60,670 bases of DNA from Flavobacteriales bacterium (lineage in GTDB: Bacteria > Bacteroidota > Bacteroidia > Flavobacteriales_D > Sanyastnellaceae). Position numbers and translations under genes: made by a program. A model generated the notes under the pieces. That model searched no databases, had not been told where the DNA came from, and worked only from the letters and a program-made list of their open reading frames with translations. Each line of letters starts with the position of its first letter. Position 1 is the stretch's first letter. Positions 24,887 to 27,878 of this stretch are shown here, in pieces. The stretch spans positions 1 to 60,670 of the forward strand of contig JAIXWP010000089.1 of NCBI GenBank assembly GCA_027491215.1, read 5' to 3'.

Positions 24887-25177
24887 ATGCTCTTAACGAT
24901 TGCACATGGCGCTACGGATGACAGTTTTTACGGATTAGTCCTTCTTGCAATCATTGTCTATATAGCTTTTGTAGCCATTTCTCTATTCAATACAAATGGA
25001 AAAAATCTTTCTCTCTGGATTTTCAATACCATATTTGCTGTATTGCTATCACCTATCATGATCTTTATTTTGATGTTTCCTTCTGCAGTAATCATCATCC
25101 CTATTATCTACATAGCCTGCCTAGTCGTTCATATTAGAGCAATAATTAAGAGAAAAAGAAATGCAAAAACTGTTTAG
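24887..25177 (+). CDS. Small membrane protein of unknown function
   Basis: 96 residues. Three hydrophobic segments (about 15-35, 43-62, 65-85) and a basic tail (IIKRKRNAKTV) indicate an inner-membrane protein with its C-terminus in the cytoplasm. I recognise no family. Its 3' end overlaps the next gene by 17 bases in another frame, so the two are translationally linked and may work together. Start chosen at the ATG at 24887; the earlier ATG at 24876 runs into a stop after five codons. Confidence 0.65.
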   Translation: MLLTIAHGATDDSFYGLVLLAIIVYIAFVAISLFNTNGKNLSLWIFNTIFAVLLSPIMIFILMFPSAVIIIPIIYIACLVVHIRAIIKRKRNAKTV

Positions 25178-27086
25178 TGGATTAGCACTTCTTCTGATTT
25201 TCCTTGCATGGTCATGTGGCTCAAACAAGCCCATGGATGCTACCAAGACTCCAAACTATTTTAGACTCTTAACTAGCGGATCTGATTTTGATAGCTTGTC
25301 AGGAGAACCTTTATCTGCGAAGCACTCCAGAGTAGGCACTGTTAAGGTCGTTTGGAAAATTGATGAGAAAGGAATCTATTTCATTCAATCAAAGTACTAC
25401 AATTATCATAGCGATTTTTGTAATGCCCAATTCAATAGTTGGGAAACATTAGAAACATTTAATGCCGCTAATTATCACACCAATATTCTACAGAAGTATT
25501 GTCTTGGAAACCTGAACTTCTATTCTGACCTAAACATCTACACGTTAGAACTAACGGCCTCTACAGAGTATAATGTAGATCAGATAGAAGAGTTTTTTAA
25601 GCAGGTTCAGACCAGCATGACCTTCGAGCATGACTTACGGTTATGCATTTCTACAGACTTTTTAATTGAAAAAGAATCAGAATTTGATGTGCCGAAAATT
25701 TCTACTTCAGAACTCTATGGTCAGTTGAAATTTCAAATTATTCGAAGCGGTAAAGTTTATGGGCGGTTAGTAGTTCTTGATAGTCTGACAAAAAATAGCG
25801 ACGTTTCCCCAACTGATATTATTATAGTGCATGGCTCACCACTAGAAATTCCATTATGCAGAGCAATAGTCTCCGATGCATTCCAAACTCCATTGTCGCA
25901 TATTCAAATTCTGAGTAGGTCTCGAGGTACTCCTAGCTGTGCTGTTTTGAATAAAAGTGAACTTGATGAATTAATGGCATTAAAAGATCAATACATCGAA
26001 TTGAATATTTCAAATGATGATTTTTCGTTGAGAAAACTAGAAGAATCTGAATGGAGAAAATACGCTGTATTGGAGAAGCCAGCACCAAGATTGTTGATTT
26101 ACTCTTTCGACAAGGAGTTTTTATCAGGAAAAGATCTAGATCTTAAGTCAAAGAAATTGGTTGGAAATAAAGCAGCTGCATTTGGAGAATTAGCTCAATT
26201 AGGCAGAAAAAACAAGAGTTCTTTTACTACTCCGGAAGATGCATTCGCAATACCATTCTATTATTTCAACGATCATCTCACGAGATTCGGAATCATCAAT
26301 GATGTGATCAAGTTAAACAATATTCAGGATCCTTATTCTGAGCGAGAAAAGGTTGATAGTCTGCTCAAATCGATTCGAAAAGCCATCAAGCAAAACGATG
26401 TAAGAGCAGAACTTCATCGCTATGTGGATGAACGATTGAATAAGTCACCTTTTAGATCATTCCGCTTTAGAAGCAGCAGCAATGCTGAAGACATTGATGG
26501 ATTCTCGGGTGCAGGGCTTTACACCAGCAAAACTTATGTGAAAGGCGATAGTGTAAAAACAATTGACCGCGCAATTAAAGCAGTTTGGGCAAGCGTATTC
26601 AACGATCAAGCCTACTACGAAAGGTGGAGCAAAGGAATCGATCTCACAACTGTGCAAATGGGCATATTGGTGCATAGAAGTTTCCCTGACGAGGAGGTCA
26701 ATGGTGTAGTGATTAGCAGTAATATTTATCGTCCAAGTTTTATCGGTATCACAGTAAACCTTCAAAAAGGAGATGAAGATGTAGTTTCGCCTACGAATGG
26801 TAATACCACAGAGCAAGTAATTTTAATGGATGGTGGGCAGTTTTTAAATGGAAAAGAAAAAGTGGGATGTGATTATATCAGCATGAGTAACTTGAATAAT
26901 TATCAGCCTTTATTGAACAAGGAGCAATACATGAATCTCTACTACGCCATAACTGAGATTAAAGAGCACCTCTACTTCTCCAACTTCGGTGATCATAACA
27001 AAGGTTACAATAATTATGCATTAGATATCGAGTTCAAGTTTGATAAGAATGGAAAACTATATATCAAACAAGTTAGGCCTGCCTAG
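25161..27086 (+). CDS. Exported lipoprotein with phosphohistidine-like and PEP-synthase-type ATP-grasp domains
   Basis: 641 residues. Signal peptide with lipobox LAWSC (Cys 19). Residues 20-180 match nothing I know. TPLSHIQILSRSRGTPSCAV (243-262, His 247) resembles the swivelling phosphohistidine domain of PEP-utilising enzymes. The PPDK/PEP-synthase ATP-grasp domain follows: VGNKAAAFGEL (334-344), FRSSSNAEDIDGFSG (436-450), WASVFNDQAYYERW, EEVNGVVISSN, and the closing DIEFKFDKNGKLYIKQVRP (622-640). In PEP synthase the ATP-grasp domain comes first; the order here is that of alpha-glucan water dikinases. ATP is not expected in the periplasm, so the activity is puzzling. It overlaps the membrane-protein gene before it and lies 18 bases ahead of surE. 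Confidence 0.85.
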   Translation: MQKLFSGLALLLIFLAWSCGSNKPMDATKTPNYFRLLTSGSDFDSLSGEPLSAKHSRVGTVKVVWKIDEKGIYFIQSKYYNYHSDFCNAQFNSWETLETFNAANYHTNILQKYCLGNLNFYSDLNIYTLELTASTEYNVDQIEEFFKQVQTSMTFEHDLRLCISTDFLIEKESEFDVPKISTSELYGQLKFQIIRSGKVYGRLVVLDSLTKNSDVSPTDIIIVHGSPLEIPLCRAIVSDAFQTPLSHIQILSRSRGTPSCAVLNKSELDELMALKDQYIELNISNDDFSLRKLEESEWRKYAVLEKPAPRLLIYSFDKEFLSGKDLDLKSKKLVGNKAAAFGELAQLGRKNKSSFTTPEDAFAIPFYYFNDHLTRFGIINDVIKLNNIQDPYSEREKVDSLLKSIRKAIKQNDVRAELHRYVDERLNKSPFRSFRFRSSSNAEDIDGFSGAGLYTSKTYVKGDSVKTIDRAIKAVWASVFNDQAYYERWSKGIDLTTVQMGILVHRSFPDEEVNGVVISSNIYRPSFIGITVNLQKGDEDVVSPTNGNTTEQVILMDGGQFLNGKEKVGCDYISMSNLNNYQPLLNKEQYMNLYYAITEIKEHLYFSNFGDHNKGYNNYALDIEFKFDKNGKLYIKQVRPA

Positions 27087-27104: not shown

Positions 27105-27878
27105 ATGAGTGAAAATCGACCTTTGATTTTGGTCACCAATGATGATAGCATATATTCCAAAGGAATTAAAAGTCTAGTTGAAGCCGTTTCTTCTTTAGGG
27201 GAAGTAATTGTAGTAGCGCCAGATAGTCCGCAAAGCGGAATGGGGCATGCTGTTACTATTCACGGTATTCTTCGTATCAATGAGGAAAAAATATTTGGAG
27301 ATATAAAAGCTTACACCACCAGCGGAACGCCGGTTGATTGCGTAAAGCTTGCTATAGCAAAGGTCCTTCCTCGAAAACCAGATTTATTGGTGAGTGGAAT
27401 TAACCACGGATCAAACTCTTCGATCAACGTAATCTATTCAGGAACTATGTCAGCGGCAGTAGAAGGAGCCGTTGAAGGAATTCCATCCGTTGGATTCTCT
27501 CTTCTTGACTTCAGTGCTGATGCAGACTTCAGAGCTGCAATGAAAATTGCACATGACGTATCAAAACAAATTTTAGAAGATAAGGGATTACCTGAAGGAA
27601 CTTGTTTGAATGTGAACATTCCAAAAGGAAGTCCTGAAGAAATTAAAGGTGTGAAAATATGCAGACAAGCGAAAGCGAATTGGGAGGATAATTTCGATCA
27701 TCGTATTGATCCAATGGGCAAGCCTTACTACTGGATGCTTGGGGAGTTCAAGAACTATGATAAGGGAGAGGACACAGACGAATTTGCATTGTCTCACCAA
27801 TTTATTTCAATTGTTCCCGTTCATTACGACCTTACTGCCTATCACGCTATTTCACACTTACAACAATGGACATTATGA
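27105..27878 (+). CDS. surE: 5'/3'-nucleotidase SurE
   Basis: 257 residues, the usual length. The metal-binding VTNDDS (about 10-15), the APDSPQSGMGHAVT block (about 38-51), TSGTPVDCVKLA and VSGINHGSNSSINVIYSGTMSAAVEG carry all the conserved Asp, Asn and Ser residues. SurE hydrolyses nucleoside monophosphates and short polyphosphate and matters for stationary-phase survival. The 3' end overlaps the next ORF by 4 bases (ATGA) if that starts at 27875. Confidence 0.96.
   Translation: MSENRPLILVTNDDSIYSKGIKSLVEAVSSLGEVIVVAPDSPQSGMGHAVTIHGILRINEEKIFGDIKAYTTSGTPVDCVKLAIAKVLPRKPDLLVSGINHGSNSSINVIYSGTMSAAVEGAVEGIPSVGFSLLDFSADADFRAAMKIAHDVSKQILEDKGLPEGTCLNVNIPKGSPEEIKGVKICRQAKANWEDNFDHRIDPMGKPYYWMLGEFKNYDKGEDTDEFALSHQFISIVPVHYDLTAYHAISHLQQWTL

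Follow-up and report, generated by a model that had tools for sequence, protein, structure and literature searches.

What would a protein with an apparently intact ATP-binding domain do outside the bacterial cytoplasm, where, to our knowledge, ATP-using enzymes are not expected? The question is raised by a gene in a 60,670-nucleotide stretch of DNA from a Flavobacteriales bacterium (contig JAIXWP010000089.1 of assembly GCA_027491215.1; hereafter the window). From an ATG start, this gene encodes a 641-residue protein with a predicted signal peptide, which a preliminary description of the sequence had read as a lipoprotein joining a phosphohistidine segment to a domain of the phosphoenolpyruvate (PEP) synthase and pyruvate phosphate dikinase (PPDK) type. 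Judging from conserved residues, a predicted structure and analogy with characterized enzymes, we consider that the protein is probably an extracytoplasmic dikinase, phosphorylating an acceptor by way of a phosphohistidine. Its mode of action is most likely that of a dikinase, making it a variant member of this superfamily, and no other protein in its own genome matches PPDK_N.

Domain order and active site

Relatives of the window protein were read in four exported architectures: a short type of 625-658 residues, to which it belongs, and types of approximately 835, 1312 and 970 residues. An alignment of 111 rows covers all four, and one of 47 rows covers the short type only. The motifs first noted in the window protein, LAWSC, TPLSHIQILSRSRGTP with His247, VGNKAAAFGEL, FRSSSNAEDIDG and KQVRP, were all found. 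PPDK_N is matched by residues 332-640 (E 4.4e-21; 75.9 bits against a Pfam cut-off of 27) and, at E <= 0.01, by all 47 members of the short-type alignment. The match to GWD1_pHisD, at residues 191-297, is weak (E 8.6e-4; 19.3 bits, below the cut-off of 27), and 15 of the 47 members reach E <= 0.01 for it, the best at 3.7e-7.

AlphaFold2, run on the 47-row alignment, gave a model with a mean predicted local distance difference test score (pLDDT) of 89.5 and a predicted template-modelling score (pTM) of 0.87. In this predicted structure, VIA-align matched the ATP-grasp domain of rifampin phosphotransferase (RPH, 5hv1) to residues 316-641 with a Z score of 29.9 (2.2 A over 288 residues), and scored the same region at 28.8 against PEP synthase 2ols and 21.5 against 1dik. 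With the Pfam match above its cut-off, this bears out the earlier impression of a complete ATP-binding domain. Residues 188-293 align to the His domain of RPH (5fbu, 753-867) with a Z score of 11.8 (2.5 A over 100 residues), and in the family profile PLSH lines up with PEP synthase's catalytic SH, so that the segment 243-262 lies within the mobile His domain. Because Pfam, structure and profile alignments all place the His domain before the ATP-grasp, the protein runs from signal peptide through N-terminal domain and His domain to ATP-grasp, which is the order of the glucan, water dikinases (GWD), as had been proposed.

The active site is conserved throughout. His247 is a histidine in 109 of the 111 rows, with gaps in two truncated sequences; 110 rows retain Lys337, Arg437, Glu443 and Asp444, the remaining one being truncated and gapped; and 109 retain Glu624, Gln637 and Arg639, the other two again being truncated and gapped. 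The Arg/Glu/Gln set of the ATP site is thus retained across the alignments. Ser456 is invariant in the 47 short-type rows and is a threonine in the 970-residue rows shown. Arg437 is paired with Arg117 of RPH, and Ser456 with Thr136, in the printed alignment, and Lys337, within a G-x-K motif, would take the position of Lys22. According to the excerpt of the RPH study used here (PMC4844700), Lys22, Arg117 and Thr136 handle the nucleotide phosphates, His825 is the phosphate carrier, and a Lys22Ala change abolishes activity. Given that invariant residues match this phosphate-handling set, the parts needed to charge the histidine appear to be maintained by selection outside the cytoplasm.

Four things were computed directly: the order of the domains, their predicted fold, the lack of variation at catalytic and phosphate-binding positions, and the conservation of export features. 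They are consistent with the following sequence of events. The signal peptide would export the protein, which would stay in the periplasm, perhaps as a lipoprotein. There the C-terminal ATP-grasp domain would bind a Mg-triphosphate donor (ATP or a related triphosphate) and, if it acts as PEP synthase and RPH do, pass the beta-phosphate to His247 of the swivelling domain. With each turnover His247 would transfer the phosphate to an acceptor bound in the N-terminal domain (28-187), which might be an extracytoplasmic glycan, an envelope component or a small molecule. That the acceptor should bind in this domain is suggested by its standing as a third, conserved module: residues 28-190 modelled alone reach a pLDDT of 91.5, and Pro50, Lys62, His83, Tyr105 and Asn119 are invariant in the 47 rows.

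Features of the dikinase-like gene and its immediate neighbours in the window. ORF, open reading frame.
Feature	Coordinates	Strand	Basis
Exported dikinase-like protein (P0001), 641 aa	25161..27086	+	ORF, Pfam
Signal peptide, residues 1-19, ending at Cys19; atypical lipobox LAWSC	25161..25217	+	Sequence, hydrophobicity scan, model helix 2-20
N-terminal domain, residues ~28-187; candidate acceptor-binding domain	25242..25721	+	Alignments, model of 28-190, fold searches
Phosphohistidine swivel domain, residues 188-297	25722..26051	+	Pfam, structure alignment, profile alignment with PEP synthase
His247 codon, presumed phosphate carrier	25899..25901	+	111-row conservation; aligned with PEP synthase SH
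ATP-grasp domain (PPDK_N), residues 316-641, with Lys337, Arg437, Ser456, Glu624, Gln637, Arg639	26106..27083	+	Pfam, alignments, structure
96-aa membrane protein (P0002), 17-nt overlap with the dikinase-like gene start; possible partner	24887..25177	+	ORF; congener counterpart
Next gene, 18 nt downstream of the dikinase-like gene, same direction	27105..27878	+	ORF

Export and spread of the family

Export was judged by a crude, loose rule that asks for a hydrophobic 12-mer near a start, leaving out genes open at a locus edge. It was passed by 110 of 112 exported-type genes (87 of 89 short, 14 of 14 long, and 9 of 9 of the 970-residue type); the two failures are L118, a long ORF whose start is unclear, and L146, an interrupted ORF. 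The latter is from Flavobacterium sp. HSC-32F16, in which the reading frame of the dikinase-like gene appears interrupted. Two longer relatives scanned with Pfam, of 836 and 1315 residues, each combine PPDK_N with Por_Secre_tail, the sorting domain of the type IX secretion system (T9SS). Although the rule is loose, its outcome is consistent across the family, and together with the T9SS tails it makes export likely.

Lipidation is not secure. The lipobox LAWSC is atypical, its Trp at -2 presumably breaking the usual rule, and the N-termini of homologues are mixed, many ending in ...SAQ like substrates of signal peptidase I; export is therefore the better supported of the two. The lipoprotein signal first described for this protein thus stands as a signal for export, shared by homologues with signal-peptide-like N-termini, and is doubtful as one for lipid attachment. 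Two ways of avoiding an enzyme outside the cytoplasm had also been offered: that the protein is not secreted as predicted, which the signal-peptide-like starts (under the loose rule) and the tails of the two scanned relatives disfavor, or that the fold is reused without catalysis, which the invariant catalytic and phosphate-binding residues disfavor. Since export and catalytic residues are both conserved, mispredicted export and a dead fold fit poorly.

Among 100 genomes, the host's own and 99 relatives, 25 match the window protein at E <= 0.001. Besides the window protein these include five other full-length proteins at 36-38% identity and one fragment at a contig end in a congener (G001), the rest being longer relatives or ordinary PEP synthase/PPDK; a more complete congener (G002) has no match at this threshold. 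In a phylum-wide set, 46 of 395 genomes match, the own genome counted, and seven others have the full short type at 34-36% identity. A scan of GTDB representatives returned at least 559 relatives, of which the best 80 carry Bacteroidota names except L109 (Fibrobacter) and L082 and L115, which are labelled just 'bacterium'. As such, the family is large and mainly found in Bacteroidota, with relatives in three further exported architectures, two of them with type IX secretion tails.

Genes beside the family

We examined 86 short-type loci (the best 80 relatives, five others and the window) for five ORFs either way, some loci being cut by contig ends. The commonest neighbor within this range, at 37 of the 86, is a DUF4956-like membrane protein. 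Pfam confirmed DUF4956 in four representative neighbors, and the polyphosphate polymerase VTC in the gene between the dikinase-like gene and DUF4956 in L076. The three genes run in one direction, in the order dikinase-VTC-DUF4956, in L076 and L078; DUF4956 is directly upstream, no more than 7 nt away, in L080, L091, L128 and L143; and it is convergent with the dikinase-like gene at 31 loci (Flavobacterium, Chryseobacterium, Epilithonimonas and Edaphocola), the two being separated by 15 nt or less at 21 of these. On the tree of the dikinase-like proteins, each of the three arrangements lies on one side of a branch and adjacency takes four changes, which makes more than one origin of the link probable. 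The window has no DUF4956 neighbor. It falls on a long branch in a supported set of seven rows that includes L076 and L078, and its exact place is unsure because it is joined there to L095, both being long branches.

VTC was surveyed in 70 of the best 80 genomes, taken as sets of 20 and 50, and is present in 35 (8 of 20 and 27 of 50). In 33 of these 35, a DUF4956 match and a VTC match are no more than 500 nt apart; the exceptions are L165, where DUF4956 is 3.5 kb away in a CotH gene group, and a genome without a DUF4956 match whose VTC is near a contig start. The dikinase-like gene adjoins DUF4956 in 25 of the 35 VTC-less genomes versus 2 of the 35 with VTC, both of the latter being the three-gene groups. 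VTC-less genomes without this adjacency are L077, L083, L085, L089, L090, L099, L101, L108, L116 and L132, whose locus is truncated by a contig end. DUF4956 is single-copy in all 20 genomes of the first set; in the second set of 50, three have two copies, one has three and five have none. With the 70 genomes counted singly, adjacency is associated with VTC absence at a Fisher p of 1.2e-8, whereas phylogenetic treatment of the same contingency yields four independent pairs and a sign test p of 1. The contingency follows clades and is confounded by phylogeny; with so few independent pairs it is a pattern, not proof. Co-occurrence of DUF4956 and the dikinase-like gene at the level of whole genomes is uninformative, because DUF4956 is found in 96 of the 100 relatives.

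On another contig, the own genome carries a single VTC-DUF4956 pair (L159 1403-8579), lying just after genes that we take, by their motifs, to resemble porU and porV of T9SS, and ispF. It also has five CotH-domain matches (L174-L178), and other exported CotH-like kinases may therefore be common there. In L076 and L078 the dikinase-like gene adjoins VTC-DUF4956 in a place like that of CotH in published groups and in L165, although CotH is an unrelated family and the window protein has no CotH Pfam match up to E 1. A contiguous accessory gene group of CotH, polyphosphate polymerase and DUF4956 is described in the excerpt consulted of PMC7112168, so a kinase beside a VTC-DUF4956 pair has precedent. 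Judged from gene order, the DUF4956/VTC linkage is a candidate route for the third possibility first raised, that substrate reaches the exported protein in some other way. Two further loci were seen in passing: in L165:1344-7804, DUF4956 adjoins CotH with VTC downstream, and in L166:5793-10209 a 1013-residue protein without a CotH match sits between DUF4956 and VTC.

The 96-residue membrane protein overlapping the gene start had been suggested as a partner, an idea that gains some support within the subclade and fails for the family as a whole. A 99-residue counterpart in a congener (L046:367-666:-) lies between the same thiolase-like gene and the start of the dikinase-like gene, overlapping that start, and its Smith-Waterman score was reached by none of 500 shuffles. 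Short membrane-like ORFs precede the dikinase-like gene in three of the six other subclade rows (L076, L078 and L088); none was recognized in L077 or L095, and L082 is cut by a contig end. The similarity is weak, the L088 score being reached by 2 of 500 shuffles, that of L078 by 18 of 500, and L076 having none above z = 2. No match was found at E <= 0.001 in 59 other genomes, the window being the sole match among 60, and all Pfam hits were sub-threshold. A family-wide partnership was rejected on this ground; a fast-changing partner within the subclade is plausible from gene position and these similarities. The next gene downstream, which we take by its motif to encode a SurE-like nucleotidase, was likewise rejected as a conserved partner, with no homolog within five ORFs at the other 85 loci (some cut by contig ends). 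A defense system was rejected too, there being no PADLOC match.

Exported histidine phosphatases adjoin some members. For the 1312-residue type, one lies directly upstream in 9 of 11 loci (L009-L016 and L028, not L017 or L018; L020 is cut by a contig end). In the Tenacibaculum short type, an exported His_Phos_1 protein is directly downstream in L091, L128 and L143, and one is nearby in L090. Pfam was used to check the identity of three such neighbors, two of them from 1312-residue loci; L042:8310-8840:- is an example. For the 970-residue type, the next gene encodes an exported beta-lactamase-like protein (PF13354) in 11 of 13 cases (not L062; L045 is cut by a contig end), two of which were Pfam-checked (examples are L061:2995-4236:+ and L043:8249-9508:+).

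Known systems and alternative readings

Measured against the domains that define PEP synthase, PPDK and RPH, the window protein belongs to none of the three. With PEP synthase and PPDK it shares the ATP-grasp fold and the SH catalytic motif; it differs in being exported and in ending with the ATP-grasp, the reverse order, and neither it nor the 47 members has a Pfam match to the PEP/pyruvate-binding barrel. The possibility of an ordinary PEP synthase whose signal peptide is fortuitous is ruled out by this order, by the missing barrel and by the separate PEP synthase/PPDK-like ORFs of several relatives. RPH is the closest solved fold for both catalytic domains and has the same phosphate-site residues, with Ser replacing Thr136, but its ATP-grasp is N-terminal and its His domain C-terminal (PMC4844700, in the excerpt consulted), and the window protein lacks the rifampin-binding domain. 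The NCBIfam model RIF_Ptrans_rph gives 51.7 bits against a cut-off of 999 and matches just residues 324-508.

GWD and phosphoglucan, water dikinase (PWD) offer the same order of phosphohistidine domain and C-terminal ATP-grasp, and GWD has an LSH-type His motif. Plant GWD is larger than 641 residues, and the window protein differs further in being exported and bacterial and in its N-terminal domain. No starch-binding Pfam match occurs in any of the 47 short-type members, though Pfam coverage of every GWD/PWD module was not checked. Given that GWD1_pHisD falls below its cut-off, membership in GWD itself is not supported. No secreted dikinase is described in the titles or abstract openings of the literature found.

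Several observations weigh against an extracytoplasmic dikinase. We know of no ATP in the periplasm. Fold searches with the N-terminal domain gave no clear match (the best Foldseek E value is 0.4, and the best VIA-align row, polyphosphate kinase PPK1 at Z 4.7, is under the noise level and was given no weight). No neighbor is common to the whole family within five ORFs at the 86 short-type loci, and no histidine phosphatase adjoins the 835-residue type in three loci read. The signal-peptide rule is also passed by 2 of 16 ordinary PEP synthase/PPDK genes and by 161 of 345 other long ORFs of the same loci. In the RPH excerpt, Glu297 is dispensable, so the invariance of Glu624 need not imply RPH-like chemistry, and Arg117 and Thr136 mutants still split ATP, keeping pyrophosphatase activity, while the second half-reaction is not completed (PMC4844700).

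The mutant behavior suits an ectonucleotidase-like protein, in which the half-reaction would serve to acquire phosphate by splitting scavenged extracellular ATP to AMP and phosphate, without a dedicated acceptor. Relatives with T9SS tails would be at work outside the cell, and the presumed SurE-like gene lies next to the window gene; its absence beside the other loci, and a conserved third domain whose invariant polar residues suggest an acceptor, make this reading quite improbable. A ligand-binding or sensor protein, whose ATP-grasp/His pair would bind extracellular nucleotides or polyphosphate and change shape with no phosphorylation, would fit a periplasm in which no ATP-regenerating system is known, the lipoprotein-like N-termini of some members and the unmatched N-terminal fold. 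We nevertheless regard it as unlikely, because the carrier histidine, unneeded for pure binding, is invariant in every homolog reaching it and because exported histidine phosphatases adjoin some members. Least probable, and by our estimate very much so, is a protein that works in the cytoplasm or at the cytoplasmic face of the inner membrane, with its hydrophobic stretch an uncleaved anchor. There ATP is present, the atypical lipobox would need no explanation, and the failure of L118 and the passing of ordinary enzymes under the start rule would be accommodated; signal-peptide-like starts in four architectures and sorting tails in two argue otherwise. An extracytoplasmic dikinase, acting through His247, is the explanation we favor.

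A bolder version of this, which we hold to be doubtful, is that DUF4956, with or without VTC, feeds the exported dikinase across the inner membrane with VTC polyphosphate or another high-energy phosphate. Drawing on extracytoplasmic polyphosphate or ATP, the dikinase, in the place of CotH, would phosphorylate envelope or secreted polymers, and exported histidine phosphatases would reverse or quench the reaction. If true, it would be a bacterial parallel to the kinases of the secretory pathway, on an unrelated fold. The DUF4956/VTC linkage points to a candidate path for the donor and to what DUF4956 might do. If the exported dikinase itself is real, a second fold would be added to the exported bacterial kinases. 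The breadth of this exported family, in which the ATP-grasp site is intact and some members bear T9SS tails, makes a periplasmic phosphate donor in Bacteroidota a testable question, for example in Flavobacterium johnsoniae.

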